Assembly: GCA_002794775.1 (NCBI GenBank)
Contig: NBAY01000019.1
Coordinates: forward strand, 1-64,000
Source of the DNA: Porodaedalea pini
Lineage: Eukaryota; Basidiomycota; Agaricomycetes; Hymenochaetales; Hymenochaetaceae
Direction: 5' to 3'
DNA length: 64,000 bases
Made by a program: the position numbers and the translations under genes. Below are positions 44,609-63,683 of the stretch, piece after piece (positions within the stretch are counted from its first letter, which is position 1; each line of letters opens with the position of its first letter). The notes below the pieces were generated by a model that was not told where the DNA came from, searched no databases, and saw only the letters and a list, made by a program, of their open reading frames with translations.

Positions 44609-44689
44609 CACTTCAGGCTACCCCTCTGAGCAGACCAAGTAGGTCTATTCGTACACACAACTAATTGACCATTTAGGTATTGAGCCTGG

Positions 44690-44900
44690 GCGTGCCCAAT
44701 CCGCTGGGCACTCCCAGTGGGTGCGGGTTGGGTGTGCCCAATTTTTTTTACTGTGGGAAAGTTGGGTGCACCCAGATCATTTGGGCACTCCCAACTGGGC
44801 CTGCCCAGTTTTTGGGCACCCCCAGTGGGAGTGCCCTGGGAGTGCCCAGATATGTCACTGTCACTGACTGTCTGGGGGACTTTTGGGTACACCCAATTTG
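44690..44900. repeat. Subterminal GGGCACTCCCA-type motifs, left arm
   Basis: Clustered direct and inverted copies of GTGCCCA / TGGGCAC with intervening TTGGGTG, 80-290 bp from the left terminus. The right arm has the mirror image at 63392-63602. Such clusters are typical transposase-binding regions of DNA transposons; that role is an inference. Confidence 0.6.
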
Positions 44901-45779
44901 TTTTTGCCATAAAATCTAGGGGCTTTATAAATGTTGTATTTTATTTTTTTTGATCCTACAATTTAGTGATCTTGCTATTGACCATTGGCATGAATTGAAT
45001 TTTGGTCAAGATTAGTCTGCATCAGACAGGAAAGAATGCTGAGCATGCTAGACACACAGGACAAAAAGATATTTGTTGCTATTAGAAAGACTAAGATAAT
45101 AAAAATAATAGAGATAGTATTGAACAGTTCTATATACTGTAAGACAAATGGAGAAATAGGGAAATTGTACAGCAGTATGAGAGAAATGAAAATAAATATG
45201 AGTCAGCTAAAAGTGTAATGACTACTTAAGAAATCATTAATGATATTCTAACATTAAACATTGGGAATCAAGCTCCAGCATTCTAACTATATTAGAGAGA
45301 TTATATGTCATAGGCTCTATGAGAAGTTCTAACTAGAGTGACATAGCTGCACTGGACACTTAAGTAGAGCAATTGAAAACTGAACAAGTGCAAAGGTCTG
45401 ATACATTAGGATTAGTTTGAATGCCCAAGTAGAATAGAGAGTATAAACTAAGAGGGAAACTGAGATAGAAATGTAGAAAGAGTGTAAGCCCACTAGAGCA
45501 TTCTTATCATTTCTAACATGTTGCTGACCTTCTGAACATCATAACATAACTTTGAGATACTAAGCATCTAACACTCTGAGATACACAAAGTATCAATACA
45601 GTGTAAAATCCTAGGATGAAGAGAACAAGAAAGGGAAGAGATTTGAAGTTAAAATGAAAGAGAGACTTGAAAGCAGTCAGACTTGAGCTGTGCTCAAATA
45701 TCAGGCCTGGACTACTAAGCTTAAAAGATTAGATATGACTAGTTGACTGTATCTAAATCTTTTACAGGTACCTAGTTGA
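44901..45779. other. AT-rich, non-coding part of the left arm
   Basis: No frame longer than about 60 codons and no recognised protein. Mirrored at 62513-63391 in the right arm. Confidence 0.5.
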
Positions 45780-46196
45780 GTATACTCAGTATACCCAACT
45801 ATTTGGGAGTGCCCAATTATCTGGGGGTGCCCAATTGGGCACACCCAACTATCTGGAGGTGCCCAGTTGGGAGTGCCCAATTATCTGGGGGGGCCCAGTT
45901 GGGAGTGCCCAACTATCTGGGGGTGCCCAGTTGGGAGTGCCCAACTATCTGGGGGGGCCCAGTTGGGAGTGCCCAACTATCTGGGGGGGCCCAATTGGGC
46001 ACACCCAACTATCTGGGGGGGCCCAGTTGGGAGTGCCCAACTATCTGGGGGTGCCCAGTTGGGTGCGCCCAACTATCTGGGGGTGCCCAGTTGGGCGTGC
46101 CCAACTATCTAGGAGTGCCCAGTTGGGCACACCCAATTATCTGGGGGTGCCCAACTGGGTGCGCCCAACTATCTGGGGGTGCCCAATTGGGCGTGC
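45780..46196. repeat. ~32-bp tandem repeat array, left arm, outer part
   Basis: Units such as TGCCCAGTTGGGAGTG followed by CCCAACTATCTGGGGG repeat head to tail, each containing short inverted repeats (GCCCA/TGGGC). The array is interrupted by the Gypsy element, inserted after CGTGC at 46192-46196, and continues at 52444. Reading frames through it (GVPNYLGVPSWECPTIWG) are artefacts of the repeat period. Confidence 0.9.
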
Positions 46197-46610
46197 TGTT
46201 AGGCGGGAGTCCGGGAGATGACTTGGACTGGGCAGGCCTCGGCTGACTGTCGTCTGGGACGTGCTATACTCGAGCGGGGACTCGGGACACGTTATACTCA
46301 GGCTAGGTCGTCGCGGAGGTAAGAGGATTAATGCAAGTCTAAACTAATACAAGGGGGACGAGTCTCACCTAGGTCGTCGCGGAGGTAAGAGGAAAAGCAG
46401 AACAAGGAGTTCATGCGATTCCTGAGACCTTATATAGCGACGACCGTGAGACTATATTACCTAACATTACATAACGAGTGGGAATGGAACGAATGAAGGT
46501 AGTGTGGGAATGATTGTGTAAGATGGGTAAATATAATGAAAAGGACGAATATAATAAAGGAAATGGTAAAAGGGAAAATAAAGGAAAAGGTGAAAGTTCA
46601 GGTTCTAACA
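46197..46610 (-). repeat. 3' LTR of the Gypsy element
   Basis: 414 bp, starts TGTTAGGCGGGAG and ends GGTTCTAACA on the plus strand. Contains two direct copies of CTAGGTCGTCGCGGAGGTAA. It differs from the 5' LTR only by T instead of C within the first 30 bp (GATGACTTGG against GATGACTCGG). Confidence 0.97.
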
Positions 46611-46622
46611 TTACCCCCCCTT
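46611..46622 (-). other. Polypurine tract
   Basis: Minus strand reads TTGAAGGGGGGGTAA directly against the 3' LTR. It doubles as the end of the pol frame (Lys-Gly-Gly-stop), so the plus-strand primer site and the last codons overlap. Confidence 0.8.
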
Positions 46623-49600
46623 CAAGGTTGGGCGTCCCGACCAACCATGATCGCGGTCGTCGGGCTCGGTGTCGACGAAGAGCGGACGGAGTCGTTGACG
46701 AGGGATGTCGAGTTTCCGAGGTGCACCGGGATGTTTGAGGTAGAATTCAGCGATCGCCTCCTTCGCGTTCTCGCCGAAGTCCGTCTCAGGCTGCCAAGTA
46801 GGTTCATTGTAGCCGACCCACTTGACAAGGTACTGTAGTTTCCCTCGGTGCAGACGTGAGTCTAAGACCTCCTCGAGTTCGTATTCCTCCTCGTTGTCGA
46901 CGATGTCTGGCGGCGGCGGCGGCGGTTGCTTCTGGCTTTCAAAGGACGGTTCGACGGCGGGTTTCAACAGGGCTTCGTTGAAGACAGGGTGGACCTTTTT
47001 CCATCGCTTCGGGAGTTTGAGCTTGTACGCGCTCGCTCCTACCTTGTCGACGATGTCAAAGGGACCGTACCATTTGTCTGCGAGTTTCTTTGTCGGCGAG
47101 TCCGTACTGATGTTTCGCCCGTCAAGGAAGACTTTGTCTCCAGCCTTGTACTCCACCGAAGCTCCTGCTGTCCGGTCATGGTAGCGCTTCATGTCCTCTG
47201 CTGCCTTGACTAGATTGTCCTTAGCAACGCGATGAGTCTCCTTGATGTGCTTAGCGAATTCTTCCGCCGACATGTTGGCAGAGGAAGTTCGTACGGTGTC
47301 GAAGCTCATAGGGTGACGTCCGGTGTTTGCGTAGAAGGGTGACATCCTTGTCGCTGAATGTTCGCGGTTGTTGTAGGCGAACTCTGCAAGGGGGAGCCAG
47401 TCCTTCCAGTCCGATTGCCGATGATTGACGAAGAGCCGGAGGTACTGTTCGAGCTCTTGATTGACGCGTTCTGTCTGACCGTCCGTTTGTGGGTGGTATG
47501 CCGTTGACGGGTTGCCTTCGATGTGTAGGAGTTTGTATAGTTCCTTCATCATCGACGCATCGAACTGTGTGCCTCGGTCGTGGATGATCTTCTTCGGTAG
47601 GCCATGGAGGCGGAAGACGTGGTCTCGGTATAACTGAGCCATGCCTTCCGCTGACAGTTTCGTCGTCGTCGGGATGGCATGCATCTGTTTCGAGAATCTG
47701 TCCACGAAGACGCAGATTGCATTGTGTCCCTTAGAGTCCGGGAGTTCTCCGATTAGGTCGACCGTGACGATCTCCCAGGGACCTTCAGGGATCGCGTTAG
47801 GATGAAGCGGTCTCGATCTCGACGTTCTTAAGGCTTTCGTCCGTTGGCAACGGTTGCATCCTCGGACGTATGTTCGGACATCGGAGAACATTGACGCCCA
47901 CCAGAAGTCTCGACGTACCAGTTCGACCGTCTTCGACGATCCAGGATGTCCTGCCAGGGTCGAGTCGTGGTACTCCTGCAATACCGCTTCCTTCATCGTC
48001 GACGGCACGTACACCTTGCCTTTCATCCGCCACAACCCGTCGACCTTCACCATATTCGTCGGCCTCTCCGACTCGTCTTGCGCTCTCTGCGCCTCACCCA
48101 CTCGTTCCAACATTTCATCACGCGACGTCCTTACCACCCCACGGTTCAGCCATTTCTCCTTGATGAACACAACGCCGTCATTGTCATCCTTGCCCTGATC
48201 ATAGCCCGCCTTGCGTGACAGTAAGTCGGCCTTGCCCATTGTCTTCCCCGACTTGTGTTCGAGGTGGAAGTCGAATTCCTCGAGTTCGGTTCGCCAGCGA
48301 GCTTGACGATAGCTCAGCTTCTGCGCTGACCTGAAGTAGGTGAGGTTGGCGTGGTCGGACCAGATTTCAATTTTGTGGCGAGCGCCAAGGAGGTATTGCC
48401 GCCACTCCTTGAGCGCCGAAACGATCGCGAGCATCTCCTTGTCGTAGATCTCGTAGTTTCGTTCCGCCGGTTCAAGTGCCTCTGACCTGTAGGCGATCAC
48501 CCTCCACTTCCCCTCCTGCTTCTGCAACAACACACCACCGAGCGCAAAGTTCGACGAGTCCGCTTCTACGCGGAAAGGGCCCTCGTCATTGGCGATGGCT
48601 AGGACTGGAGGTGAGCAGAGACGTTGTCTCAGCTCCTCGAACGCTTCCTGCTGTTCGGTCTCCCATACCCAGTCCTTCTTGCCCGTTAACGACGTCAACG
48701 GTCGGACCACCTTGCTGTAGTCCTTAATAAACCGTCTCAGCCAGTTTCCCATGCCGAGGAACTGTTGCAGCTCCTTGAGGTTCCGTGGGACTGGCCAGTT
48801 CGCAATCGCCTCCGTCTTTGCCGGGTCAGCCCTGATCTCTCCATTGCCGATGATGTGGCCGAGGTATTTGACGACCTTGGCGTCAAACTCGCACTTCTCT
48901 GGCTTCAGGTACAGGCCATTCTCTCGGAGGATTTGGAGTACGCGCCTCGACGTGTCGATATGCTCTTCAATGGTTTCCGAGAGGATCAGGATGTCGTCGA
49001 GGTATACGATGATTAAGTTCGCGTAGATTAGGTCCTTAAAGATGTGGTTGACAAAGGCCTGGAACGTGGCCGGCGCGTTGCAAAGGCCAAAAAACATGAC
49101 CGTCGGTTCGAAGAGGCCCATGTTCGTGCGAAACGCTGCCTTCCATTCGTCACCCTCGCGGATCCGGATATTGTAGTACCCCCAGCGAAGGTCAAGCTTA
49201 GTGATGTATTTCGCTTTCTTGACCTTGTCGATGAGTTCGTCAATGAGAGGGAGGGGATACTTGTTCTTGATCGTACCGTCATTGAGCTTACGGTAATCCT
49301 GGATGGGGCGTAGCGATTTGTCAGCCTTCTTAATGAAGAAGAAGGGCGACGCCATGGGCGATATCGACCGTCGAATGCGACCCGACTTCAGGTTTTCATC
49401 AAGGAAGTCCTTGAGTGACTGCTGCTCAGTCGGCGTGAGCGGGTAGATCTTACAGTCGCTCGGTTTGAAGTCGGGCTTCAAGTCGATGACATGGTCCCAG
49501 GGTCGGTGTTCCGGCAGCTTCTCGAAACCTTTTTCGCTGAAAACATCGGCGTAGTCGTTGAGGTATGCGGGCCAGGACGTCTTGTCCATTCGCATCTCAC

Positions 49601-50261
49601 TCACCCTCCTCATCTGCTCCACCACCTTCTTCACCTCGCCTAGGTCCTCCACCGGCTCCCTCTCGATCGCACATTCTTCTGGACAGCGGGTGAATTCGAT
49701 CAAGCCCGTTTTCCAGTCGACCTCCGGATTGTGACGTCGAAGCCAGTCGTACCCCAGGAAGATGTTCGACGACGCTAGGGACGTTACCGCGAGGACGATC
49801 TTCTCCCGATGACGGCCGATCATGAGTTCGACGTCAACGTACTCCTCGATCAATCCGGCCTCATTGTGCGTGCCATCGGCGTTCAGCACCGCGAGGGGTC
49901 GAATGTAGCGTTTCGTTTCCAACCCGTACCTCTCGACGAACCTGACGTCGATGCAGGATCCCGTGCATCCCGAATCCACAAGGGCATGCGCATCTACCTC
50001 TCTCGCCTCACCAGCTATTTCATGCTCGACTGTCAGGAGAAGGTCCAGCTGGCGTCCGCCAGTTCCTCTCATGAACAGTTGTTCGTACTCTTCATTCTTG
50101 TTTACACCGGTGGAGACTTCGTAATCGGGAAAACCATTGACGTTGTTCGCATCTACGTATTGTACAAACGGTTGGTTATATTTTAGCGGATCCGGATTTG
50201 AAGTCTCTTGTTCTTCTCGGTCAGTCGCCCCGATGGCTACGCCTGACCACTCGCAAAACCC
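46611..50261 (-). CDS. pol: Pol polyprotein of the chromovirus, read by -1 frameshift from gag
   Basis: The frame is open from the GGGTTTT slip site; its first Met is at 50072, from which 1,153 residues are counted. Residue positions from that Met: aspartic protease DSG at 33-35; reverse transcriptase about 215-400 with the catalytic YLDD at 357-360; RNase H about 495-620 (ADSSNFALGG, EIYDKEMLAI); integrase zinc finger H702, H709, C739, C742; catalytic triad D772, D832, E868 (HDRGTQFD, QTDGQTERVN), spacing 35 between the last two. A chromodomain lies at about 1062-1118 (YLVKWVGYNEPTWQPE), which in chromoviruses targets integration to marked chromatin. The product works in the cytoplasmic particle and then in the nucleus. 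The stop at 46611-46613 abuts the 3' LTR. No break was seen. Confidence 0.95.
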   Translation of the reverse strand, partial: GFCEWSGVAIGATDREEQETSNPDPLKYNQPFVQYVDANNVNGFPDYEVSTGVNKNEEYEQLFMRGTGGRQLDLLLTVEHEIAGEAREVDAHALVDSGCTGSCIDVRFVERYGLETKRYIRPLAVLNADGTHNEAGLIEEYVDVELMIGRHREKIVLAVTSLASSNIFLGYDWLRRHNPEVDWKTGLIEFTRCPEECAIEREPVEDLGEVKKVVEQMRRVSEMRMDKTSWPAYLNDYADVFSEKGFEKLPEHRPWDHVIDLKPDFKPSDCKIYPLTPTEQQSLKDFLDENLKSGRIRRSISPMASPFFFIKKADKSLRPIQDYRKLNDGTIKNKYPLPLIDELIDKVKKAKYITKLDLRWGYYNIRIREGDEWKAAFRTNMGLFEPTVMFFGLCNAPATFQAFVNHIFKDLIYANLIIVYLDDILILSETIEEHIDTSRRVLQILRENGLYLKPEKCEFDAKVVKYLGHIIGNGEIRADPAKTEAIANWPVPRNLKELQQFLGMGNWLRRFIKDYSKVVRPLTSLTGKKDWVWETEQQEAFEELRQRLCSPPVLAIANDEGPFRVEADSSNFALGGVLLQKQEGKWRVIAYRSEALEPAERNYEIYDKEMLAIVSALKEWRQYLLGARHKIEIWSDHANLTYFRSAQKLSYRQARWRTELEEFDFHLEHKSGKTMGKADLLSRKAGYDQGKDDNDGVVFIKEKWLNRGVVRTSRDEMLERVGEAQRAQDESERPTNMVKVDGLWRMKGKVYVPSTMKEAVLQEYHDSTLAGHPGSSKTVELVRRDFWWASMFSDVRTYVRGCNRCQRTKALRTSRSRPLHPNAIPEGPWEIVTVDLIGELPDSKGHNAICVFVDRFSKQMHAIPTTTKLSAEGMAQLYRDHVFRLHGLPKKIIHDRGTQFDASMMKELYKLLHIEGNPSTAYHPQTDGQTERVNQELEQYLRLFVNHRQSDWKDWLPLAEFAYNNREHSATRMSPFYANTGRHPMSFDTVRTSSANMSAEEFAKHIKETHRVAKDNLVKAAEDMKRYHDRTAGASVEYKAGDKVFLDGRNISTDSPTKKLADKWYGPFDIVDKVGASAYKLKLPKRWKKVHPVFNEALLKPAVEPSFESQKQPPPPPPDIVDNEEEYELEEVLDSRLHRGKLQYLVKWVGYNEPTWQPETDFGENAKEAIAEFYLKHPGAPRKLDIPRQRLRPLFVDTEPDDRDHGWSGRPTLKGG
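50224..50261 (-). promoter_or_regulatory. -1 ribosomal frameshift signal between gag and pol
   Basis: On the minus strand gag reads CAG GGT TTT, giving the slippery heptamer G GGT TTT (50255-50261). A 6-nt spacer GCGAGT follows, then GGTCAG and, 18 nt later, CTGACC, a perfect 6-bp stem. Slipping back one base enters the pol frame (GGG TTT TGC GAG), which stays open. The gag stop TAG lies in the loop. Confidence 0.8.
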
Positions 50262-51319
50262 TGCGAGTCGACGACCTCTTCGTCATTCCCTTCTTCCTCC
50301 ACATAGTCCTCCACCGTCGACCTCCGAGTGTCTACGACTTCCTTGAAGGCCGATTCCTTCATCGCGCCGAGCTCGTCCGCGAGGATGCGACGTTCGCCTG
50401 GTGCCATTAGCTCCAGCATGCGCTGGATGATTGGCTTCCCCTGCGGGCACTTGTCCTTGAAATGGCCCAGCCCGCCGCAGATCCAGCACGCGCGTCGTCG
50501 TTGCGCCTCGTTCATTGAGACGTCCATCGGTTGACCAGCGCCTCCAAAGGTGACGCCGGTCGCGTCGCGTCTGTCGACGTGAGGGGCCGCTACCTGACGG
50601 CGAGCCGGGGGTCCTTGTTGTTGCGGCGGGCGAGGCTGAGGTATAAACGGGCGGCCTCGTTGGATCGCGCGGATCTGTTGTTCGCCGCGATCGATCTCGA
50701 TAGCCTTGTTCTTCCAGTCCTCGTACTTCGTCGGGACCGGCGTTGATCTCAGGACTCCACGCACTACTTCGATGTTCATTGCGCGTTTGAGACGATCACA
50801 GATGATGCTGTCGTCCTTCAGTTCCGCACGCTTGATGATGACGTCGAGCTGTTGGAAGAACTTGTCTGCAGTGAGGTCCTTCTGAACCTTCTCCCGGAAT
50901 TCCTTCAGCGCCGCCTCCTTGCGATTCGGGTCGTCGAACGAGGCGTCGAGTCGCTCCTGGAATCTCTCCCAGCTGTCGGTGAAGGTGACGATTCCCGACG
51001 TTGTCGACTCCTCGATGTAGTTCTGTGCCCACGTCGCCGCATTACCACCCTTCAGGTAGGAGAGAGCTACATAAATCTTACTCTCCGACGTAGGGTATTG
51101 GTTCGGATTCGCGGATACAAAAAGAAGGACTTCACGTCTGAAGTCGAGGTAGTCATCGCCACCAGTGAATTCTCGTGGCCGGGCGACATCTATGTTGGGG
51201 GTCGGGGGGTTAGCGGCCGCGACCGGTGCTGGGGCGTTGTTCACCTGATGGGCGAAGGCATTCGCAACGATGGCCGCGATCTGCGCCATTTGCTGTTGGC
51301 TGAAACCTTCTGCTGACAT
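50237..51319 (-). CDS. gag: Gag of the chromovirus
   Basis: 360 residues from the first Met: a capsid-like region (RPREFTGGDDYLDFRREVLL, DSWERFQERLDASFDDPNRK) and a CCHC zinc knuckle CWICGGLGHFKDKC at residues 278-291, which binds genomic RNA. The frame is open without a Met back to 51679, with gag-like proline-rich sequence (PPTPPEPSTPAPEPA) and WWSEIRRSWY, so the real N-terminus may lie upstream, reached by splicing or frameshift. A second Met-less frame covers about 51628-51910. Gag ends at 50237, 16 nt past a slippery site that leads into pol. Confidence 0.9.
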   Translation of the reverse strand: MSAEGFSQQQMAQIAAIVANAFAHQVNNAPAPVAAANPPTPNIDVARPREFTGGDDYLDFRREVLLFVSANPNQYPTSESKIYVALSYLKGGNAATWAQNYIEESTTSGIVTFTDSWERFQERLDASFDDPNRKEAALKEFREKVQKDLTADKFFQQLDVIIKRAELKDDSIICDRLKRAMNIEVVRGVLRSTPVPTKYEDWKNKAIEIDRGEQQIRAIQRGRPFIPQPRPPQQQGPPARRQVAAPHVDRRDATGVTFGGAGQPMDVSMNEAQRRRACWICGGLGHFKDKCPQGKPIIQRMLELMAPGERRILADELGAMKESAFKEVVDTRRSTVEDYVEEEGNDEEVVDSQGFASGQA

Positions 51320-52029
51320 CGCGGGTTCGGGTGCGGGTGTCGAAGGTTCTGGAGGGGTTGGCGGTGAGGGGTCTCTGTTGGTTTCGCGGTAAGGACCTGG
51401 GGTCGGTGGTAGGTTGACCGTAGACGTTGACGGTGCAGGTGACGACGGAGCGGCTGGGGGCCACCTTGCTCTCCTCCCTCGTTCGTCTGATGAATACCAG
51501 CTGCGCCGGATTTCACTCCACCAGATGTCGTGAGTGACGCCGCTATTATTGGTCGCGACGTAGCCTGGTCGGTCTGGATCCCAACGGGCTGAAGCAGGAA
51601 GGGCCCGTTGCTGTTCGTCGGTGAGATCTATCTTGACGTTGGCGGAGGGACAGGGATCGGTTGCGCGTTCGATCCGGGGTTACGCCAACGTTGAGTGGGT
51701 TCGTCAGCGAAGTTGATGACGAGGCGGTAGGATCCGAGTGAGATTACAAACGAGATTGTCGTCAAAGTTTGGACTCGTCTTGTTACCCACGTCCACGTTA
51801 GGTGCGTGCTCCACCAGAGGCTAATTCGTAGAGCCAGGGTCGGGAAATGTCGGTTGATATATTTACGTAATACACGAACGTCCGAAAACGTCCGGGCAGG
51901 GTTGAGGGTTGTCGTTTAGGGGGTTTACACGTCAAGTCCGTCGAGGGGAGCGCTCCTCTAGACCGAGTGAAGGCGAGTCGACAGCGACGACTTACGCTGG
52001 GGATGAGCCTGGGTGAGGTTCTGCTTTTA
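51320..52029 (-). other. Leader between 5' LTR and gag Met
   Basis: About 700 bp in which the gag frame is open up to 51679 and an overlapping frame (RRVQTLTTISFVISLGSYRL, FADEPTQRWRNPGSNAQ) is open further upstream. Neither has a Met. It could encode an N-terminal extension through splicing or recoding, or be leader RNA. Confidence 0.5.
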
Positions 52030-52443
52030 TGTTAGGCGGGAGTCCGGGAGATGACTCGGACTGGGCAGGCCTCGGCTGACTGTCGTCTGGGACGTGCTAT
52101 ACTCGAGCGGGGACTCGGGACACGTTATACTCAGGCTAGGTCGTCGCGGAGGTAAGAGGATTAATGCAAGTCTAAACTAATACAAGGGGGACGAGTCTCA
52201 CCTAGGTCGTCGCGGAGGTAAGAGGAAAAGCAGAACAAGGAGTTCATGCGATTCCTGAGACCTTATATAGCGACGACCGTGAGACTATATTACCTAACAT
52301 TACATAACGAGTGGGAATGGAACGAATGAAGGTAGTGTGGGAATGATTGTGTAAGATGGGTAAATATAATGAAAAGGACGAATATAATAAAGGAAATGGT
52401 AAAAGGGAAAATAAAGGAAAAGGTGAAAGTTCAGGTTCTAACA
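52030..52443 (-). repeat. 5' LTR of the Gypsy element
   Basis: 414 bp; one substitution from the 3' LTR. Minus strand contains CTATATAAGG (52261-52270), a good TATA box for the element's own transcript. Confidence 0.96.
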
Positions 52444-52680
52444 CGTGCCCAACTATCTGGGAGTGCCCAGTTGGGCACACCCAATTATCTGGGGGTGCCC
52501 AACTATCTGGGAGTGCCCAGTTGGGCACACCCAATTATCTGGGGGTGCCCAACTGGGTGCGCCCAACTATCTGGGGGTGCCCAACTAGGTGCACCCAATT
52601 ATCTAGGGGTGCCCAGTTAGGTACATCCAATTATCTGGAGGTGTCCAGTTAGGTACACCCAAATGTCTGAGAGTACCTAG
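52444..52680. repeat. ~32-bp tandem repeat array, left arm, inner part
   Basis: Continuation of the array beyond the retrotransposon, starting with the second copy of the CGTGC target. Left-arm copies together span about 640 bp, against about 420 bp in the right arm. The innermost units are degenerate (GTACATCCAATTATCTGGAGG). Confidence 0.88.
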
Positions 52681-54285
52681 CTATATAAGGTCTTTTTTGA
52701 TTCCTGCCTTAGAATCATTTTTTAAAATGCAAAAAATCATTATGTCATGAAAATTAAATAAGTCTAGAATGGAAGCCTTAATAATTCTATAGATAATTTC
52801 TCAAGCATTTTGTTCTAGACTCTGCATCTTGGCAGCTTTGCTCTGAAGACAAATCAATACACTACAATCATTGACCCGACACCAGAGCTTCCACAAGATT
52901 AAGGACAAGAAAGCATAAAACTTCATTTTGAAGAGATTACCACCCTGCTCCTCAATAGTGCTCTGTATCTTCTCAATTGCATGCTCAAGACACTCAATTG
53001 CTGCATACCGCAAACTCAAAATAAGTATAGAGTGAGACAATTACAACAAACACAGTGCACATTGTCAGTAGCATTTGTACCCAGCACACAGAGAGGCAGT
53101 GAAATGAGCTTTGCCTTGATAGGTACCACCTCAGTGCTCACCACCTCACCTGTCTGATAATATCAATGCCCATGTCCATATAGCACATTAACTCAATGTC
53201 TGCATGCAGCTTGATTGGCTACAGTAGTTGGCCACCACATGATCATCACCATCAGCTGTGCGAATGTTGCCAGTAACAGCAAGTTCAACAGCATTGTGAA
53301 GACCTTCTCCAGCTCCATCAGTATGAGCTTGAATGCATCATACAGATGGCCATATGTCTTGCCTAGCAGCCACCATCACTATTTCCTTCTTGTCCTCACC
53401 TGTTGCCTCCAGTTTTGCAGGTGTGGTGCTGGACTGGCCCTCAGAGATCTCTAATGACAAAAGTTTGGATGCAACATGTCATAATATGGATGCAACCATC
53501 TTCTCTTCACATTTTGTAATGTCCTCCAGTGATACACAACACTTACTCAGATCAAAGTATCCTTCAAGGATAACAAATGAATGACTGAGACTGATACAAC
53601 AGATACAACAAGAGACAGACCCTTCCTCTTGTCCACATGCAGGATGACAATGATCTCTTTCCTTCCAACACAGATCAGCCTTTGAATTGAACAAGTTCAC
53701 CTGCAAGAAAGCTCTGAGAGTAGAATCATCCCCTTGATGTTGTCACATTCAACCTGTATATATCATGAATGACAGTCAGTATTAAGTCGCATCGGCCTCT
53801 GACCCGACACTCAAGCCCAAGTTGGACAAATAGTTCAAATCTGTACTCCATGCAGGACCCCACACACCATTAGTACTGTTATTGAAGTTATAGCTATAAT
53901 GATAGCTACATGACACCACACACAGTATCTCAAGCATTGGTTCACCAAGTGAGAGTGGCAAGTACAAAAAGCACACTGTCAGCTCTTCAAGTGGGACAGG
54001 CATCGGGTCAGACGACAATGGTGTCTGACGGAAAGCGGAAAAAGCAATGTTCGTTGTGCACTGAGTGCCGCGTGCTGGTGAGCTGCAATGATCGTGAGAG
54101 GGCGGCACACTCCGCACGGCTGCGCCATCTGGCAGCGTAGCAGCACACCTGAGCTCTGTTCGCGAACCCTGCCTTTGTCTGCGTACGGCCAAATTCCGGA
54201 CTATTTGCATCGGACAAGGGTGGACTCGGGAAGTGCATCGCGTCGCGTGCTGCAGATTGTTGGCAGTGAACCAAATGCGATTGTT
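52681..54285 (-). other. Degenerate AT-rich segment of the left arm
   Basis: Mirror of 60469-62073. On the minus strand, coding-like pieces such as VNLFNSKADLCWKERDHCHP and CLEHAIEKIQSTIEEQGGNL occur, separated by stops. It may be a decayed gene of unknown family. It also includes a diverged tandem copy of the cyclin 3' part (about 53954-54284). Confidence 0.4.
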
Positions 54286-54703
54286 GATTCACCAAGTGAG
54301 AGCGGCGAGTACGACAGGCAGAATGTCAGTTTTTTGAGCGGAACGGGCATCGGTCAGACAACAATGGTGTCTGTGATGCAAGCGCGGAAGAAAGGAATGT
54401 TTGCTGTGCACTGAGCGCCGCAATGACCGCGAGAGGTGGACCAACAAACGAGAACGGCAACGATCCTGGGGATCAATAGTGGGGCAGCACGCTCCGCACG
54501 GCCGCATCACCTGGCAGCGTCGCAGCATGTCTGAGGTACTCCGTTTGCCATCCCTGCCTTTGTCTGCGTGCGGCCAGACTTCAGACTTGCGCCTGCATCT
54601 GGCAAGGGTGGACTCGGGAAGTGCCCCGCGTTTGTGCACTGCAGAAACCGGAGACGATCCAAATGCATTCGTACCCTCGCTTTTCGTGCATTGCATGTTG
54701 CGT

Positions 54704-55891
54704 GACTTCTCTTCCTGCGGCAGCGTAGTGCTCTTGCTGACCCAGAGACACCACCCTAGGGCATCGCCCAATGCGCGTTAGCAGCGTTCAACCACGCGTG
54801 ATGGGACCGGAGAGCTTTGCCCATGCTCGATTCAAATAGCATCGATCCTGTAAGAATCTTGATACCACAACGAGTGCGGCGACGAAAGTGCGCCGCGGGC
54901 GAAGAAGCGGCGATGACAGAGGTGACAGCGGTGTGAACGGTTTTCCAAGGATCTTACGACGCTTGTCGTTAGACTGCCCTTGAGTCTGCATCTGCTGAGT
55001 TAATGGAAGCGAAGTGTCCATATGGTAGACTGTCGGCACGCGCGATGTGTCGGAGGGGTCCATTGACGTCAGCTCTGTCGGAAGACCGCAGGGGTTGGAC
55101 GTGTCCGAAGAGGTATTTGCCTTTGACGAGAGAGACGCCTCGCCTTCCCTCTTATCCAACTCCGGCTCGCCCCTCACTCCCGTGCTGATCTTCTCCTTCT
55201 CCGCGAGCCCCGTCACCTTCCCCCGCACCACCCCGATGTAGCAGAGCGCCAACTGCAGGACGCTACGTCTCGTGCGTGAACGGCGAGGCAAGTGCGATGC
55301 AGTGCGTATGCGACGAAGTGCGCAAGCGCATTCGGTATCACTGGTGCCCCTCCTGATCCTGCCGTTGCGGTAGCGGGGGAACGCGAGACGACTGCGGTCG
55401 AGGACGATGTGGAAGAGGTGGAGGACGACGGAGGAAGGATCTCGGGGCAGTCGAAGGTATGGCTGACGAAGCGCGCGCAGAGCTTGCTGATGTCTTCGTG
55501 CCCGTAGTAAGTGTCGACTGCCGGTGGGGGTGCTGCCGGCGCGGGGTGGTGCGAGTGGTGTGCGCGCGGGACTGCCGATGACTGTTTTTTTGTCGAGCGT
55601 TTTCGGCGCGGTCGGAGGGAAAAAAAAGTGATAGAGAAAAAGACACCGATCAACAGCCGCTCATCACTCAAGTATCAGAGATCGGGGGGAAAGAGGGGGG
55701 ATGCTTACAGAACTCGAGGTAGACGCTGCGGCAGCGGCGGACGCAGAAGACGATTTCGCAGGTGGAGGCGGGGCGTACGTCGCGCGGTGCACGCGCCGGA
55801 AGGGCGAGTGGTTCGAGCTGGCACTCGACGGTGATATCGAATGCGGATGCGGATGGGGGTGGGGATGGCGCGGGGCGTGGACGGTGGCCAT
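54704..55891 (-). pseudogene. Captured PCL-type cyclin relic, left arm
   Basis: Mirror copy of the fragment at 58863-60050, identical in translation. See the right-arm entry for the motifs. Orientation is outward from the palindrome centre. Confidence 0.78.
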
Positions 55892-56153
55892 ATTCGCTGC
55901 AGCGGGCTCTCTGGCTCTGGACGTTGACGAGCGTCTGTGAGCGTCGAAGGACAGGTGGAGTTGATGCGTGAGAAGAGGTCGCTGCGAATGTTTTGATCGG
56001 AACGAGATCCTTCTCGGACACAACGGTTGCGTCGCGTTCGCCGGACCGCTCAATGAGAAGGGCGGATGGGAAAACGGCTGACGTCGATGTTGAAGCGTGT
56101 GGATCGTCAAGGGGGGCAGGAGGAAGAGGCGAGGAACACGTGCTGCGTGAACA

Positions 56154-56418
56154 GGGCGAGGGAAGTTGAACCACACCAGTGCGGCAGAGACGGAGGGAAG
56201 AGTGACCAGCAGAAAGGAGCACCCTGCTTCATCGGGAAGCCCTGCTTGTCGTTTCCGCCAGAGACGCGGAAGACGTAGCCCTTGAACTCATCACCGAGCA
56301 AGTCGCTGGGGACACCTGGGACATCTTCTTGCCGTGGAAAATGCGGTAACGACGCTCATCGTCGATGTTGATCGTCTTTTGCTGGCCCATCGCCAGGTCA
56401 GCGATGTCGACACTTCAT
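56154..56418 (-). pseudogene. Captured ribosomal protein eS6 (RPS6) fragment, left arm
   Basis: Mirror copy of 58336-58600, identical. Contains [14 protein letters not shown] and [11 protein letters not shown] on the minus strand. It follows a leader-like sequence (56419-56693) with a consensus donor after CACACTCAAG. Confidence 0.85.
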
Positions 56419-56419
56419 G

Positions 56420-57224
56420 GCCGGTGGTGTCTTGAGGAGCTCGTCGTGTTCTGTCCCTTCAGGCAAGCAAAAAAAATGATGAAAAGTAATTATTAGTATA
56501 TTCAAATAGTTTTTATGATTATTATTTTTTGCTTACCTTGAGTGTGTGGCTGGTGGGACAGCCGTGCTCGTCGTCGATGGTGAAGACGAAACGACACGAA
56601 CAACGACGACGCGTTGGTTGTGTTGCCTGATTTGGCTGATCGCCGCGTCTCAAACAAGCAATCAAAGCATTCCGATTCTTTCGGAAATCTCAAAAGTCTC
56701 AGCTGTTGGCCTCAGACAAATTCTACGGACGCGTTTAAAAATACAAAAAAATATGGAATAGTTTTATTATGTATGTATCTATAGCATAGCTAAGAATTAC
56801 GCGTCCAACGCGTTTTTTTATGGAGTCATAAATACAACAGTAATCTTGACATGCAGCACCAGGCCTCCAGAAGCATACACAAAAGTACAATATACCCTGA
56901 AAGGCCTGACACATATTCTATCATGAAGTAAGTGATACATTGTGTATGTATGCAAGGTTTCAAGCCAATCAGACAAGAACTGACTTCATGATAGAGAAGG
57001 AGGTGGTTTCATGAGATCTTCTGAATCTGAGTGTTTTGTATATCCTGTTCCCAGTTTTTACTTTGAGGGCATATAAAATATTGAGCATATTTAGGGATAT
57101 CGTTTTTATGTCTCTGTAAATTTACAGGTATCCAGCCTCAGTGGTTGGAGCTGGGGGAATTGCAAAACATCGAAAATCTTGGGTTTAAGAGGTTCAGAGA
57201 AAGCATATATTCATGTTGTTGCTT
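56420..57224. other. Centre-proximal part of the left arm
   Basis: Includes the presumed eS6 leader and first intron near 56420-56700, then AT-rich DNA with ACGCGTCCAACGCG near 56799 and no supported gene. Mirrored at 57530-58334. Confidence 0.5.
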
Positions 57225-57529
57225 GGTTCAAAGTATGAGAAGCTCAACAAATTTAGTTATTTGTATTTAAGTATGGTCCAAGAAAGATATCCAACCCTTA
57301 GTTTTGTGGGTGAGGGAAAAGTTGGGAATGGGGAGTGAAATGAGAGGTGGTGCAGTTCATGTTTTGTGAAACTCGACGCAAATCCAAGAAACACAGAGCA
57401 GTTTTGCATGTATTTCCTCTCCCCCTTCAGAACTTTCCTCTAACTCCGAGATCTAGCACCTGATTACATTTATTGTAGTCATATAAAGTACTAATATCTA
57501 TTTTATAGAGCTTCCTGAAGTTTGGAATA
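57225..57529. other. Unique spacer at the centre of the giant palindrome
   Basis: The arms stop pairing at 57224/57530 and the 305 bp between have no inverted partner. AT-rich, no coding potential. Its presence makes the structure a spaced inverted duplication. Confidence 0.85.
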
Positions 57530-58060
57530 AAGCAACAACATGAATATATGCTTTCTCTGAACCTCTTAAACCCAAGATTTTCGATGTTTTGCAATTCCCC
57601 CAGCTCCAACCACTGAGGCTGGATACCTGTAAATTTACAGAGACATAAAAACGATATCCCTAAATATGCTCAATATTTTATATGCCCTCAAAGTAAAAAC
57701 TGGGAACAGGATATACAAAACACTCAGATTCAGAAGATCTCATGAAACCACCTCCTTCTCTATCATGAAGTCAGTTCTTGTCTGATTGGCTTGAAACCTT
57801 GCATACATACACAATGTATCACTTACTTCATGATAGAATATGTGTCAGGCCTTTCAGGGTATATTGTACTTTTGTGTATGCTTCTGGAGGCCTGGTGCTG
57901 CATGTCAAGATTACTGTTGTATTTATGACTCCATAAAAAAACGCGTTGGACGCGTAATTCTTAGCTATGCTATAGATACATACATAATAAAACTATTCCA
58001 TATTTTTTTGTATTTTTAAACGCGTCCGTAGAATTTGTCTGAGGCCAACAGCTGAGACTT

Positions 58061-58335
58061 TTGAGATTTCCGAAAGAATCGGAATGCTTTGATTGCTTGT
58101 TTGAGACGCGGCGATCAGCCAAATCAGGCAACACAACCAACGCGTCGTCGTTGTTCGTGTCGTTTCGTCTTCACCATCGACGACGAGCACGGCTGTCCCA
58201 CCAGCCACACACTCAAGGTAAGCAAAAAATAATAATCATAAAAACTATTTGAATATACTAATAATTACTTTTCATCATTTTTTTTGCTTGCCTGAAGGGA
58301 CAGAACACGACGAGCTCCTCAAGACACCACCGGCC
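58061..58335 (+). promoter_or_regulatory. Captured eS6 leader and first intron, right arm
   Basis: A pyrimidine/CG-rich leader ends CACACACTCAAG|GTAAGC, an intron-like AT-rich stretch follows, and the sequence then reaches GGCCATGAAG, which matches the usual Met-Lys start of eS6 genes. If still active, the captured promoter would drive transcription outward into the cyclin relic. Confidence 0.45.
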
Positions 58336-58600
58336 ATGAAGTGTCGACATCGCTGACCTGGCGATGGGCCAGCAAAAGACGATCAACATCGACGATGAGC
58401 GTCGTTACCGCATTTTCCACGGCAAGAAGATGTCCCAGGTGTCCCCAGCGACTTGCTCGGTGATGAGTTCAAGGGCTACGTCTTCCGCGTCTCTGGCGGA
58501 AACGACAAGCAGGGCTTCCCGATGAAGCAGGGTGCTCCTTTCTGCTGGTCACTCTTCCCTCCGTCTCTGCCGCACTGGTGTGGTTCAACTTCCCTCGCCC
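58336..58600 (+). pseudogene. Captured ribosomal protein eS6 (RPS6) fragment, right arm
   Basis: eS6 is a small-subunit ribosomal protein. Readable pieces in order: [40 protein letters not shown] with [11 protein letters not shown], then [11 protein letters not shown] where intact eS6 has GHSCYRPRRTG. Small indels change frame several times and the C-terminal two thirds are absent, so this is a truncated, non-functional capture. It is immediately followed by the 5' region of the cyclin relic. Confidence 0.87.
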
Positions 58601-58862
58601 TGTTCACGCAGCACGTGTTCCTCGCCTCTTCCTCCTGCCCCCCTTGACGATCCACACGCTTCAACATCGACGTCAGCCGTTTTCCCATCCGCCCTTCTCA
58701 TTGAGCGGTCCGGCGAACGCGACGCAACCGTTGTGTCCGAGAAGGATCTCGTTCCGATCAAAACATTCGCAGCGACCTCTTCTCACGCATCAACTCCACC
58801 TGTCCTTCGACGCTCACAGACGCTCGTCAACGTCCAGAGCCAGAGAGCCCGCTGCAGCGAAT

Positions 58863-60050
58863 ATGGCCACCGTCCACGCCCCGCGCCATCCCCACCCCCA
58901 TCCGCATCCGCATTCGATATCACCGTCGAGTGCCAGCTCGAACCACTCGCCCTTCCGGCGCGTGCACCGCGCGACGTACGCCCCGCCTCCACCTGCGAAA
59001 TCGTCTTCTGCGTCCGCCGCTGCCGCAGCGTCTACCTCGAGTTCTGTAAGCATCCCCCCTCTTTCCCCCCGATCTCTGATACTTGAGTGATGAGCGGCTG
59101 TTGATCGGTGTCTTTTTCTCTATCACTTTTTTTTCCCTCCGACCGCGCCGAAAACGCTCGACAAAAAAACAGTCATCGGCAGTCCCGCGCGCACACCACT
59201 CGCACCACCCCGCGCCGGCAGCACCCCCACCGGCAGTCGACACTTACTACGGGCACGAAGACATCAGCAAGCTCTGCGCGCGCTTCGTCAGCCATACCTT
59301 CGACTGCCCCGAGATCCTTCCTCCGTCGTCCTCCACCTCTTCCACATCGTCCTCGACCGCAGTCGTCTCGCGTTCCCCCGCTACCGCAACGGCAGGATCA
59401 GGAGGGGCACCAGTGATACCGAATGCGCTTGCGCACTTCGTCGCATACGCACTGCATCGCACTTGCCTCGCCGTTCACGCACGAGACGTAGCGTCCTGCA
59501 GTTGGCGCTCTGCTACATCGGGGTGGTGCGGGGGAAGGTGACGGGGCTCGCGGAGAAGGAGAAGATCAGCACGGGAGTGAGGGGCGAGCCGGAGTTGGAT
59601 AAGAGGGAAGGCGAGGCGTCTCTCTCGTCAAAGGCAAATACCTCTTCGGACACGTCCAACCCCTGCGGTCTTCCGACAGAGCTGACGTCAATGGACCCCT
59701 CCGACACATCGCGCGTGCCGACAGTCTACCATATGGACACTTCGCTTCCATTAACTCAGCAGATGCAGACTCAAGGGCAGTCTAACGACAAGCGTCGTAA
59801 GATCCTTGGAAAACCGTTCACACCGCTGTCACCTCTGTCATCGCCGCTTCTTCGCCCGCGGCGCACTTTCGTCGCCGCACTCGTTGTGGTATCAAGATTC
59901 TTACAGGATCGATGCTATTTGAATCGAGCATGGGCAAAGCTCTCCGGTCCCATCACGCGTGGTTGAACGCTGCTAACGCGCATTGGGCGATGCCCTAGGG
60001 TGGTGTCTCTGGGTCAGCAAGAGCACTACGCTGCCGCAGGAAGAGAAGTC
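58863..60050 (+). pseudogene. Captured PCL-type cyclin relic, right arm
   Basis: Resembles fungal Pho85-partner (PCL/Pho80-like) cyclins. MATVHAPRHPHPHPHPHSIS opens a first exon ending 59045 at a GT donor. Exon 2 (from 59173) has VDTYYGHEDISKLCARFVSH and PNALAHFVAYALHRT, the start of the cyclin box. LASPFTHET is then followed by a frameshift, after which LQLALCYIGVVRGKV, RTFVAALVVVSRFLQDRCYL and NRAWAKLSGP continue the box. LGDALGWCLWVSK (59986 on) is the usual end. The frameshift around 59490 and the stop after KLSGPITRG make it non-functional. Introns are retained, so capture was from genomic DNA. Confidence 0.8.
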
Positions 60051-60084
60051 ACGCAACATGCAATGCACGAAAAGCGAGGGTACG

Positions 60085-60800
60085 AATGCATTTGGATCGT
60101 CTCCGGTTTCTGCAGTGCACAAACGCGGGGCACTTCCCGAGTCCACCCTTGCCAGATGCAGGCGCAAGTCTGAAGTCTGGCCGCACGCAGACAAAGGCAG
60201 GGATGGCAAACGGAGTACCTCAGACATGCTGCGACGCTGCCAGGTGATGCGGCCGTGCGGAGCGTGCTGCCCCACTATTGATCCCCAGGATCGTTGCCGT
60301 TCTCGTTTGTTGGTCCACCTCTCGCGGTCATTGCGGCGCTCAGTGCACAGCAAACATTCCTTTCTTCCGCGCTTGCATCACAGACACCATTGTTGTCTGA
60401 CCGATGCCCGTTCCGCTCAAAAAACTGACATTCTGCCTGTCGTACTCGCCGCTCTCACTTGGTGAATCAACAATCGCATTTGGTTCACTGCCAACAATCT
60501 GCAGCACGCGACGCGATGCACTTCCCGAGTCCACCCTTGTCCGATGCAAATAGTCCGGAATTTGGCCGTACGCAGACAAAGGCAGGGTTCGCGAACAGAG
60601 CTCAGGTGTGCTGCTACGCTGCCAGATGGCGCAGCCGTGCGGAGTGTGCCGCCCTCTCACGATCATTGCAGCTCACCAGCACGCGGCACTCAGTGCACAA
60701 CGAACATTGCTTTTTCCGCTTTCCGTCAGACACCATTGTCGTCTGACCCGATGCCTGTCCCACTTGAAGAGCTGACAGTGTGCTTTTTGTACTTGCCACT
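60085..60800 (+). repeat. Internal tandem duplication of the cyclin 3' region
   Basis: GCACTTCCCGAGTCCACCCTT occurs at 60130 and again at 60518, each followed by GCAGACAAAGGCAGGG and CTGCCAG-like sequence and ending near CTCTCACTTGGTGAA (60452 and 60797). The two ~350-bp copies are clearly diverged. The same duplication is mirrored in the left arm, so it predates arm duplication. Confidence 0.7.
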
Positions 60801-62089
60801 CTCACTTGGTGAACCAATGCTTGAGATACTGTGTGTGGTGTCATGTAGCTATCATTATAGCTATAACTTCAATAACAGTACTAATGGTGTGTGGGGTCCT
60901 GCATGGAGTACAGATTTGAACTATTTGTCCAACTTGGGCTTGAGTGTCGGGTCAGAGGCCGATGCGACTTAATACTGACTGTCATTCATGATATATACAG
61001 GTTGAATGTGACAACATCAAGGGGATGATTCTACTCTCAGAGCTTTCTTGCAGGTGAACTTGTTCAATTCAAAGGCTGATCTGTGTTGGAAGGAAAGAGA
61101 TCATTGTCATCCTGCATGTGGACAAGAGGAAGGGTCTGTCTCTTGTTGTATCTGTTGTATCAGTCTCAGTCATTCATTTGTTATCCTTGAAGGATACTTT
61201 GATCTGAGTAAGTGTTGTGTATCACTGGAGGACATTACAAAATGTGAAGAGAAGATGGTTGCATCCATATTATGACATGTTGCATCCAAACTTTTGTCAT
61301 TAGAGATCTCTGAGGGCCAGTCCAGCACCACACCTGCAAAACTGGAGGCAACAGGTGAGGACAAGAAGGAAATAGTGATGGTGGCTGCTAGGCAAGACAT
61401 ATGGCCATCTGTATGATGCATTCAAGCTCATACTGATGGAGCTGGAGAAGGTCTTCACAATGCTGTTGAACTTGCTGTTACTGGCAACATTCGCACAGCT
61501 GATGGTGATGATCATGTGGTGGCCAACTACTGTAGCCAATCAAGCTGCATGCAGACATTGAGTTAATGTGCTATATGGACATGGGCATTGATATTATCAG
61601 ACAGGTGAGGTGGTGAGCACTGAGGTGGTACCTATCAAGGCAAAGCTCATTTCACTGCCTCTCTGTGTGCTGGGTACAAATGCTACTGACAATGTGCACT
61701 GTGTTTGTTGTAATTGTCTCACTCTATACTTATTTTGAGTTTGCGGTATGCAGCAATTGAGTGTCTTGAGCATGCAATTGAGAAGATACAGAGCACTATT
61801 GAGGAGCAGGGTGGTAATCTCTTCAAAATGAAGTTTTATGCTTTCTTGTCCTTAATCTTGTGGAAGCTCTGGTGTCGGGTCAATGATTGTAGTGTATTGA
61901 TTTGTCTTCAGAGCAAAGCTGCCAAGATGCAGAGTCTAGAACAAAATGCTTGAGAAATTATCTATAGAATTATTAAGGCTTCCATTCTAGACTTATTTAA
62001 TTTTCATGACATAATGATTTTTTGCATTTTAAAAAATGATTCTAAGGCAGGAATCAAAAAAGACCTTATATAGCTAGGTACTCTCAGAC
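60801..62089 (+). other. Degenerate AT-rich segment of the right arm
   Basis: Mirror of the left-arm segment. Pieces CWKERDHCHPACGQEEGS and LRYAAIECLEHAIEKIQSTI are protein-like but frames are broken every few tens of codons. No family recognised. Confidence 0.4.
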
Positions 62090-62515
62090 ATTTGGGTGTA
62101 CCTAACTGGACACCTCCAGATAATTGGATGTACCTAACTGGGCACCCCTAGATAATTGGGTGCACCTAGTTGGGCACCCCCAGATAGTTGGGCGCACCCA
62201 GTTGGGCACCCCCAGATAATTGGGTGTGCCCAACTGGGCACTCCTAGATAGTTGGGCACGCCCAACTGGGCACCCCCAGATAGTTGGGCGCACCCAACTG
62301 GGCCCCCCCAGATAGTTGGGCACTCCCAACTGGGCCCCCCCAGATAGTTGGGCACTCCCAACTGGGCACCCCCAGATAGTTGGGCACTCCCAACTGGGCC
62401 CCCCCAGATAATTGGGCACTCCCAACTGGGCACCTCCAGATAGTTGGGTGTGCCCAATTGGGCACCCCCAGATAATTGGGCACTCCCAAATAGTTGGGTA
62501 TACTGAGTATACTCA
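62090..62515. repeat. ~32-bp tandem repeat array, right arm
   Basis: Same repeat as 45780-46196 plus 52444-52680 in inverse orientation. It is about 210 bp shorter: units containing CCCAATTGGGCACACCC and others of the left array are missing. This is the main difference between the arms besides the retrotransposon. Confidence 0.88.
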
Positions 62516-63683
62516 ACTAGGTACCTGTAAAAGATTTAGATACAGTCAACTAGTCATATCTAATCTTTTAAGCTTAGTAGTCCAGGCCTGATATTTGAGC
62601 ACAGCTCAAGTCTGACTGCTTTCAAGTCTCTCTTTCATTTTAACTTCAAATCTCTTCCCTTTCTTGTTCTCTTCATCCTAGGATTTTACACTGTATTGAT
62701 ACTTTGTGTATCTCAGAGTGTTAGATGCTTAGTATCTCAAAGTTATGTTATGATGTTCAGAAGGTCAGCAACATGTTAGAAATGATAAGAATGCTCTAGT
62801 GGGCTTACACTCTTTCTACATTTCTATCTCAGTTTCCCTCTTAGTTTATACTCTCTATTCTACTTGGGCATTCAAACTAATCCTAATGTATCAGACCTTT
62901 GCACTTGTTCAGTTTTCAATTGCTCTACTTAAGTGTCCAGTGCAGCTATGTCACTCTAGTTAGAACTTCTCATAGAGCCTATGACATATAATCTCTCTAA
63001 TATAGTTAGAATGCTGGAGCTTGATTCCCAATGTTTAATGTTAGAATATCATTAATGATTTCTTAAGTAGTCATTACACTTTTAGCTGACTCATATTTAT
63101 TTTCATTTCTCTCATACTGCTGTACAATTTCCCTATTTCTCCATTTGTCTTACAGTATATAGAACTGTTCAATACTATCTCTATTATTTTTATTATCTTA
63201 GTCTTTCTAATAGCAACAAATATCTTTTTGTCCTGTGTGTCTAGCATGCTCAGCATTCTTTCCTGTCTGATGCAGACTAATCTTGACCAAAATTCAATTC
63301 ATGCCAATGGTCAATAGCAAGATCACTAAATTGTAGGATCAAAAAAAATAAAATACAACATTTATAAAGCCCCTAGATTTTATGGCAAAAACAAATTGGG
63401 TGTACCCAAAAGTCCCCCAGACAGTCAGTGACAGTGACATATCTGGGCACTCCCAGGGCACTCCCACTGGGGGTGCCCAAAAACTGGGCAGGCCCAGTTG
63501 GGAGTGCCCAAATGATCTGGGTGCACCCAACTTTCCCACAGTAAAAAAAATTGGGCACACCCAACCCGCACCCACTGGGAGTGCCCAGCGGATTGGGCAC
63601 GCCCAGGCTCAATACCTAAATGGTCAATTAGTTGTGTGTACGAATAGACCTACTTGGTCTGCTCAGAGGGGTAGCCTGAAGTG
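62516..63683. repeat. Outer right arm and right terminus
   Basis: AT-rich DNA, then subterminal GGGCACTCCCA-type motifs (63392-63602) and the right terminus ending CCTGAAGTG at 63683, exact mirror of 44609-45776. Confidence 0.85.

Follow-up and report, generated by a model that had tools for sequence, protein, structure and literature searches.

The stretch of DNA analysed here (termed the window) comprises positions 1 to 64,000 of the forward strand of contig NBAY01000019.1 in the genome assembly of Porodaedalea pini (GCA_002794775.1). A transposable element at positions 44609–63683 spans 19,075 bp and consists of two inverted arms around a 289-bp spacer, with a Gypsy long terminal repeat (LTR) retroelement nested in one arm. 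Subtraction of the Gypsy insertion (19,075 − 6,247 − 5) gives a palindrome of 12,823 bp, which matches the 12.8 kb stated in an earlier first-pass annotation of this DNA. Elements of the same family occur elsewhere in the assembly; these and other pieces are named by contig (C46 etc., the window contig being C19). The features of the window element are as follows.

44602–44608, plus strand: target-site duplication, left copy, CACAAGA (present as a single copy at the empty site on C46)
44609–46196, no strand assigned: left arm, outer piece, starting with CACTTCAGGCTACCCC; 32-bp tandem array at 45803–46196
46197–52443, minus strand: Gypsy (Ty3) LTR retroelement within the left arm; LTRs at 46197–46610 and 52030–52443
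46611–50282, minus strand: Gypsy pol open reading frame; reverse transcriptase, RNase H, integrase zinc-binding and chromo domains above cut-offs
50237–51679, minus strand: Gypsy gag open reading frame
52449–57232, no strand assigned: left arm, inner piece; remainder of the tandem array until ~52680, then the inner arm
57233–57521, plus strand: asymmetric central spacer, with an imperfect stem formed by its outer ~45 bp at either side and conserved in all three subfamilies
57522–63683, no strand assigned: right arm, unbroken; 32-bp tandem array at 62085–62489; the terminus is the reverse complement of CACTTCAGGCTACCCC
63684–63690, plus strand: target-site duplication, right copy, CACAAGA

The 16-base sequence CACTTCAGGCTACCCC is present in inverted orientation at both termini, at 44609 (+) and 63683 (−), and the ends are of the CA..TG type (CACTTCAGG..CCTGAAGTG). 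Identical termini bracketed by CACAAGA, as the first-pass annotation had described them, are thus found, with the heptamer at 44602–44608 and 63684–63690. The window contains 7 occurrences of CACTTCAGG, whereas shuffles give an expectation of 0.53. CACAAGA is not rare by itself (12 occurrences, 10.3 expected), and its weight lies in its exact placement at both ends of the element.

Without the Gypsy sequence the left arm has 6372 bp (1588 + 4784) and the right arm 6162 bp; the 210-bp excess of the left arm is in or near the 32-bp tandem array. Perfect mirroring extends without a break for at most 4715 bp (52510–57224 with 57530–62244), and 1385 bp are perfectly mirrored inward from the outer ends. 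Outside the array, 0 of 4180 inner and 0 of 1130 outer sites differ between the arms. The arms had been called perfect in the first-pass annotation; their inverted orientation and long perfect runs bear this out, but the tandem array and the ~45 bp beside the spacer are imperfect. The Gypsy element sits inside the tandem array of the left arm and is missing from the right arm. Its 414-bp LTRs differ by one mismatch, it is flanked by its own target-site duplication (CGTGC, at 46192–46196 and 52444–52448), and the closest matches of its pol protein are from Sanghuangporus (69% identity), which by itself would make a hymenochaetoid basidiomycete the probable host.

When the flanks of the window element are joined, they match C46:117585–117733 (146 of 149 bases identical), where CACAAGA stands once and the insert is missing. 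Because this matching site is empty and carries one CACAAGA, the whole palindrome was inserted as a unit. Such a single insertion had been proposed in the first-pass annotation, which named an allele without the insertion and without a single CACAAGA as the observation that would speak against it; the C46 site carries the one copy. The element on C46 in turn has its empty site on the window contig (C19:97008–97157). Since each of the two contigs holds the other's empty site, they appear to represent two haplotypes of the same region, C19 with one insertion and C46 with another.

Exact duplications of 6–8 bp, mostly 7 bp, flank 13 of the 20 elements of the family that were read (the window copy and 19 further pairs of ends); C50 is among the 13, and the C46 element has a duplication with one mismatch. 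Joined flanks of 12 duplication-bearing elements were searched, and eight show a match across the junction: six at 98% or more (the window copy, C14a, C29b, C35, C46 and C121, the last five at 99%–100%) and two at 92% (C29a and C56). No junction-spanning match was seen for C40, C42, C116 and C144 among the candidates scored. The two empty-site searches scored 40 of 1115 and 40 of 263 candidates, and misses in them are not proof. Flanks common to several of the 20 elements look like dispersed repeats and not like allelic pairs. The flanks of the C86 element recur at C86:40834–41087, with 63 bases separating them. One flank is common, at 100%, to C105:1057–1149 and C65:52248–52340; allelic insertion, ectopic exchange and misjoin are indistinguishable here, and by bit score C65 is no closer to C105 than C125 is.

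The assembly searched has 53.3 Mb in 201 contigs. The 16-base end occurs in it 87 times (45 forward, 42 reverse) and is absent from a backwards control. By our own count the 87 ends make up 33 convergent pairs, 10.7 to 35 kb apart, and 21 single ends; one pair is nested within another on C50. Every one of the 20 paired elements read is a palindrome; the arms measure ~6.2–7.8 kb where these are uninterrupted by a nested insertion, and the palindromes are mostly 12.6–15.7 kb long. The first-pass annotation had suggested a search of the genome for other ends, and the 87 motifs, with every one of the 19 further pairs palindromic, are the answer to it. Coordinates indicate mirrored inner arms at 12 further locations (C51, C37, C65, C49, C24, C147, C119, C3, C20, C120, C70 and C45) and mirrored outer arms at four (C69, C66, C162 and C57). 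With the 20 elements read, at least 36 mirrored copies are present in the assembly, the outer element on C50 being excluded from this count. The spacer was found at 40 places in both orientations (all 40 that were scored, of 53 candidates), and the same spacer is at the centre of 19 of the 20 elements, C25 having a different centre. A search of viral contigs with the 16-base end matched seven, which by our own estimate is about chance for a 16-mer.

The arm content sorts the 20 copies into three subfamilies: A (n = 10, including the window copy), B (n = 4) and C (n = 6). Copies within one subfamily are ~98%–99.9% alike. The B arms contain a piece with ketoacyl-synthase and phosphopantetheinyl-transferase domains, a pair that we take to be FAS2. 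A separate copy at C9:1083515–1084840, probably the host gene, matches this piece with 95% identity across 1326 contiguous bases. Both the B and the C arms carry pieces of Hsp90, and in the elements read the FAS2 and Hsp90 pieces are at mirrored positions in both arms. The FAS2 piece has equal bit scores in the two arms of five of seven elements (C121, C3, C46, C25 and C20; unequal in C144 and C119), and an A-arm stretch does so in nine of 13. The first-pass annotation had referred to captured genes in the window copy. There, none of the arm open reading frames tested reaches the cut-off of any Pfam family, a resemblance to cyclin noted by eye was not confirmed, and no host donor of the inner arm was seen among the 40 of 237 candidates scored; the idea of capture finds its support in the sister subfamilies, with FAS2 in B and Hsp90 in B and C.

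A lone head-to-head duplication, the origin offered in the first-pass annotation, does not agree with at least 36 mirrored copies in three subfamilies, each largely symmetric; a one-off event of this kind was rejected in view of the family of palindromes in the assembly. Because three subfamilies with different arm content are each largely symmetric, the palindromic state is older than the subfamilies and has been maintained since.

Three other structures were noted in the family. The single end on C1 leads into a C-type arm and then into another insertion. Two different palindromes, the one at C1:157640–167639 and, in its left arm, the one on C90, have related repeats of another kind (83%–89% alike) inserted in their arms. 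The outer element on C50 (C50:61983–97119) is broken by another palindromic element at 82633–95945; its arms share an inner stretch of ~3.2 kb and then continue as C-type on one side and as a B-type FAS2 piece on the other.

Within an element, the two arms are as a rule nearly identical. Across the inner segment of 4.2–4.9 kb, 13 of the 20 elements show no arm-to-arm substitution; the others have 1 (C50 and C105 each), 6 (C35), 8 (C112), 13 (C40), 19 (C90) and 23 (C144). When the outer 1.1–1.4 kb is added, 11 of the 20 elements are still without substitution (C29b has one in the outer arm, and C56 two as well as two gaps); the outer-arm counts of C105 and C90 were not used, because misaligned or nested stretches entered into them. 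Distances to the nearest other element are 0.05%–1.45% and the subfamily means 0.28%–1.72%, and in 18 of the 20 elements each arm has its closest relative in the opposite arm and not in another element.

Differences among the copies are themselves mirrored. Sites that vary within a subfamily are mirrored in every element at 58 of 78 positions in A, 56 of 79 in B and 107 of 134 in C. No re-pairing of arms among elements equals the true pairing (A, 0 of 5000 random re-pairings; B, the true one only of 24; C, the true one only of 720). Variants private to one element number 167 mirrored against 43 in one arm only, and in the window copy 12 and 0. The tandem array varies about fourfold in length among elements (~250 to 1100 bp), and its length agrees within 1 bp between the arms in 11 of the 20 (C14a, C14b, C25, C29b, C35, C42, C50, C56, C86, C121 and C125), C90 and C112 not being cleanly scorable. 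Bases beside the spacer that distinguish A from B and C are mirrored as well, and at the spacer edges the left and right sides match about ten bases further in A than in B and C. Because variable sites, array lengths and the FAS2 and Hsp90 pieces are mirrored, and one old duplication cannot yield such mirroring, the arms appear to have been repeatedly recopied from one another.

The position of the remaining differences suggests where copying starts. Of 71 arm differences in the inner segment, 60 are in its outer half, compared with 113 of 221 mirrored variable sites (pooled p = 1.4e-8, a value that takes clustered, non-independent sites as independent). The skew is individually significant in C144 (23 of 23) and C90 (17 of 19). 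All 23 differences of C144, an element with an exact 8-bp duplication, are in the outer third, and none are in the inner ~3.2 kb. Arm differences in C144 (most of them) and in C40 are often common to other copies, and exchange with other elements may have contributed to them. The spacer region, as single-stranded DNA, folds far better than its shuffles (z = −8), and the ~45 bases adjoining the spacer have been retained as an imperfect stem by all three subfamilies. The gradient of arm differences, together with the conserved stem, suggests that copying begins at the central hairpin and runs outward.

A candidate for the enzyme that moves these elements is the KDZ (Kyakuja-Dileera-Zisupton) transposase. 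KDZ domains give 77 match rows in this genome, some of which are parts of one gene, and none in 14 control genomes. Two KDZ stretches (C28:19200–19916 and C2:524049–524513) are inside pairs of matching ends. The element on C28 (C28:3533–25584) has A-type ends at 98%–99%, the one on C2 (C2:501266–530822) has C-type ends at 95%, and in each the KDZ stretch is single. The two stretches are mutual nearest relatives at the DNA level (80% over the full length), ten other matches being partial and at 68%–71%. The two ends of the C28 element are identical to each other over 453 bp at a depth of ~0.8–1.27 kb and over 238 bp at ~3.3–3.57 kb, and its outer arm is common to the palindromes on C57, C66, C69 and C162 at 96%–97%. 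The first-pass annotation had taken both outer ends of the palindrome to be the same end of a simple element; this assumption is unneeded, as the C28 element already has identical inverted sequence to ~3.5 kb. In a tblastn search confined to this transposase family, the C28 KDZ protein stretch had no match among the 20 elements read or elsewhere in the window. From the shared ends, the larger KDZ-bearing elements on C28 and C2 are likely drivers of the palindromes, and their transposase would be what moves them. Most simply, the non-autonomous versions, in which the repeats fill everything, would descend from a KDZ element whose inverted repeats were long and homogenised.

It therefore seems probable that this is a high-copy family of non-autonomous DNA transposons with a body that is wholly an inverted duplication, inserted as a unit, probably moved by KDZ, and with arms repeatedly recopied from the hairpin outward. 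In the proposed process, the larger, rare elements with the same ends would make the KDZ transposase, which would move the palindromes as units and create the 6–8-bp duplication. At a break or stalled fork, a single strand around the spacer could fold back on itself. Synthesis or gene conversion would then proceed outward from the central hairpin, often reaching the outer ends, and point mutations, changes in array length and captured gene pieces would become mirrored by this recopying. It may happen either in place or during transposition.

Several observations weigh against parts of this proposal. Six of the 20 elements lack a duplication (C14b, C25, C86, C90, C105 and C112), and for five elements without one the joined flanks gave no junction-spanning match among the candidates scored. 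The arms of C35 differ by 0.14% and one of them differs by 0.12% from the nearest other element; in C40 the values are 0.31% and 0.10%. Array length is unequal between the arms in C29a, C40, C46, C105, C116, C144 and the window copy (both pieces counted). Private one-arm changes are all in the left arm in C112 (7 to 0) and C35 (5 to 0), which none of the models considered accounts for; in C112, the left arm has A and the right arm G at 7 of the 8 sites of difference. The gradient of differences is carried mainly by C144 and C90, as C35, C40 and C112 are singly not significant. Misjoins or exchange between elements do occur (the flank common to C105 and C65, the mixed arms on C50). The shared ends are the one line of evidence that suggests KDZ mobilisation, and the data come from an assembly, in which polishing or the assembly process could have increased the likeness of the arms.

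The rival that survives best, still somewhat unlikely in our estimation, is that the arms are equalised only at transposition: an excised strand or one arm would serve as template, the hairpin would be rebuilt at each jump, and the arms would drift afterwards. Most copies have no one-arm changes, as expected of new insertions, the insertions are polymorphic against empty sites, and private one-arm changes in C90 are 7 to 8 between the arms, as under simple drift. However, uniform drift after one reset predicts neither the confinement of the C144 differences to the outer third nor the skew in C90, although exchange with other elements could also explain the former. The window arms (0 of 5310) can be set against the LTR pair nested in them (1 in 414), a comparison that is weak (p ~0.07, hand calculation) and points away from a reset at transposition only.

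An assembly artefact, in which fold-back reads or polishing made or equalised the second arm, is very unlikely. The elements without duplication (6 of 20), the unpaired end motifs (21 of 87) and the restriction of the evidence to an assembly would agree with it, but duplications are present at both flanks in 13 of 20 elements, and empty sites show the flanks joined elsewhere. The same spacer at 40 places, including the centre of 19 of 20 elements, the presence of the Gypsy element in one window arm only, and the separation of copies just 0.05% apart likewise speak against an artefact, and a wholesale collapse in assembly is hard to reconcile with the seven elements whose inner arms differ.

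An ordinary Foldback or long terminal inverted repeat (TIR) transposon that arose through a single ancient inverted duplication and was recently amplified, without subsequent arm-to-arm exchange, fits the architecture (long inverted repeats with internal tandem repeats) and the ~98%–99.9% likeness of subfamily copies. It predicts that the arms within an element are at least as different as those of different elements; the reverse is found in 18 of 20, in all subfamilies, and most subfamily differences are mirrored. Unless the assembly homogenised the arms, this explanation is refuted, and we regard it as highly improbable. Two single-arm elements inserted head to head at one place would likewise put the same outer end on both sides, but one 6–8-bp duplication brackets the whole in the window copy and 12 others, and this origin, whose probability is negligible, was rejected on the spacer shared by 19 of 20 centres and on empty sites that are without any arm.

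A stronger form of the hairpin proposal makes the palindrome obligatory in the life cycle: a KDZ-type family would pass through a hairpin, and one arm would template the whole element. This is speculative and on balance doubtful. If true, the element would be regenerated from one half, and whatever an arm gained, including captured host genes, would be doubled at once.

Arm-to-arm gene conversion, or fold-back at short inverted repeats, is found in Y-chromosome palindromes and in the rDNA palindrome of Tetrahymena, which are not transposons. Among transposons, the layout of the window family resembles that of Foldback (FB) elements, which have a foldback structure like that of Tetris, and of Galileo; the 32-bp arrays in both arms and the 289-bp spacer of the window copy are features of the Foldback type. 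The nearest model is Galileo, of the P superfamily in Drosophila. Galileo has long inverted repeats with internal tandem repeats and 7–8-bp duplications; its non-autonomous copies have the longest repeats, one of 9,021 bp having arms of 4.2 and 4.7 kb, and inner sequence or inserted elements are incorporated into both repeats (PMC4168063, PMC3573991). Recombination and conversion are, in its authors' proposal, drawn to long repeats; of 191 copies in D. willistoni, three are reported to have strongly extended repeats, and the longest ones in D. mojavensis are 95.2% alike (PMC4168063, PMC3573991). Long repeats with tandem arrays, 7–8-bp duplications and segments mirrored in both repeats are thus shared with Galileo, but strongly extended copies of Galileo are few in D. 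willistoni and its transposase is P-type, whereas here 20 of 20 elements are palindromic, the arms are mostly identical and the candidate is KDZ.

Tetris is a foldback element with outer, tandem-repeat and inner domains and with ends common to another element; its repeats reach 1.7 kb and three copies are structurally complete (PMC4079207), in contrast to the 6–8-kb arms and at least 36 mirrored copies of the present family. Tm1 (Mutator/Foldback, root-knot nematodes) has foldback-like repeats of variable length, non-autonomous groups with other genes, 9-bp duplications, a Mutator-like transposase and short end motifs outside the inverted repeat (PMC3169594). It shares foldback-like repeats and carried genes with the window family, but a full palindrome is not described for it in the portion of that source used (PMC3169594). 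Pack-type gene-capturing transposons of plants (PMC8903248) are likewise non-autonomous and carry pieces of host genes, as subfamily B does with FAS2 and as B and C probably do with Hsp90, but the captured pieces here are mirrored in both arms.

Of the KDZ elements in fungi, Kyakuja-1/2_LB have 7-bp duplications, CA..TG ends and no TIRs (PMC12730594), KDZ1-3 of Cryptococcus have 4–8-bp duplications and repeats of 139–241 bp (PMC12810828), and TIR motifs of KDZ elements in Marasmius oreades are reported in a supplement (PMC8290104). The window family shares with them the length of the duplication (6–8 bp, mostly 7) and the CA..TG termini. It differs in its arms, which at 6–8 kb span the whole element where the others have no or short TIRs, and in that the KDZ (PF18758) stretch of C28 had no match in the 20 elements read. 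The first-pass annotation knew of no described fungal element with this layout. We also found no fully palindromic fungal or KDZ element in our searches of open-access PMC papers, subscription papers and Repbase being outside the search.

Other repeats are present in the window beside the large element, among them a second, small palindrome.

38646–39920, no strand assigned: small complete palindrome, separate from the large element, 1275 bp, with ends CACTTCAGGTACCCC

It has perfect 633-bp arms and a 9-bp loop, and its flanks are without a clear duplication. Compared with the elements read, it shows no match beyond the end motif. With two cases at hand it may be speculated that full palindromy is a habit of this transposon group here. 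Three direct, diverged copies of a ~3-kb sequence, 73%–85% alike, are at 8614–11786, 20998–23717 and 25935–29111. A direct duplication in several pieces (32603–37837 and 40173–43876, 79%–92% identity) adjoins the large element, and CACTTCAGG is at the same position in both of its copies.

Although long inverted repeats tend to be unstable, dozens of near-perfect palindromes are kept in this genome as transposons, mobile recently enough to be polymorphic, and captured pieces of host genes are seen in them in doubled form. The presence of such a family may explain breaks and misjoins in assemblies of this kind. The family provides many natural replicates of arm-to-arm copying, with the divergence among copies as a yardstick, and it makes testable how Foldback-type repeats stay alike and whether the upkeep of a palindrome is tied to transposition.

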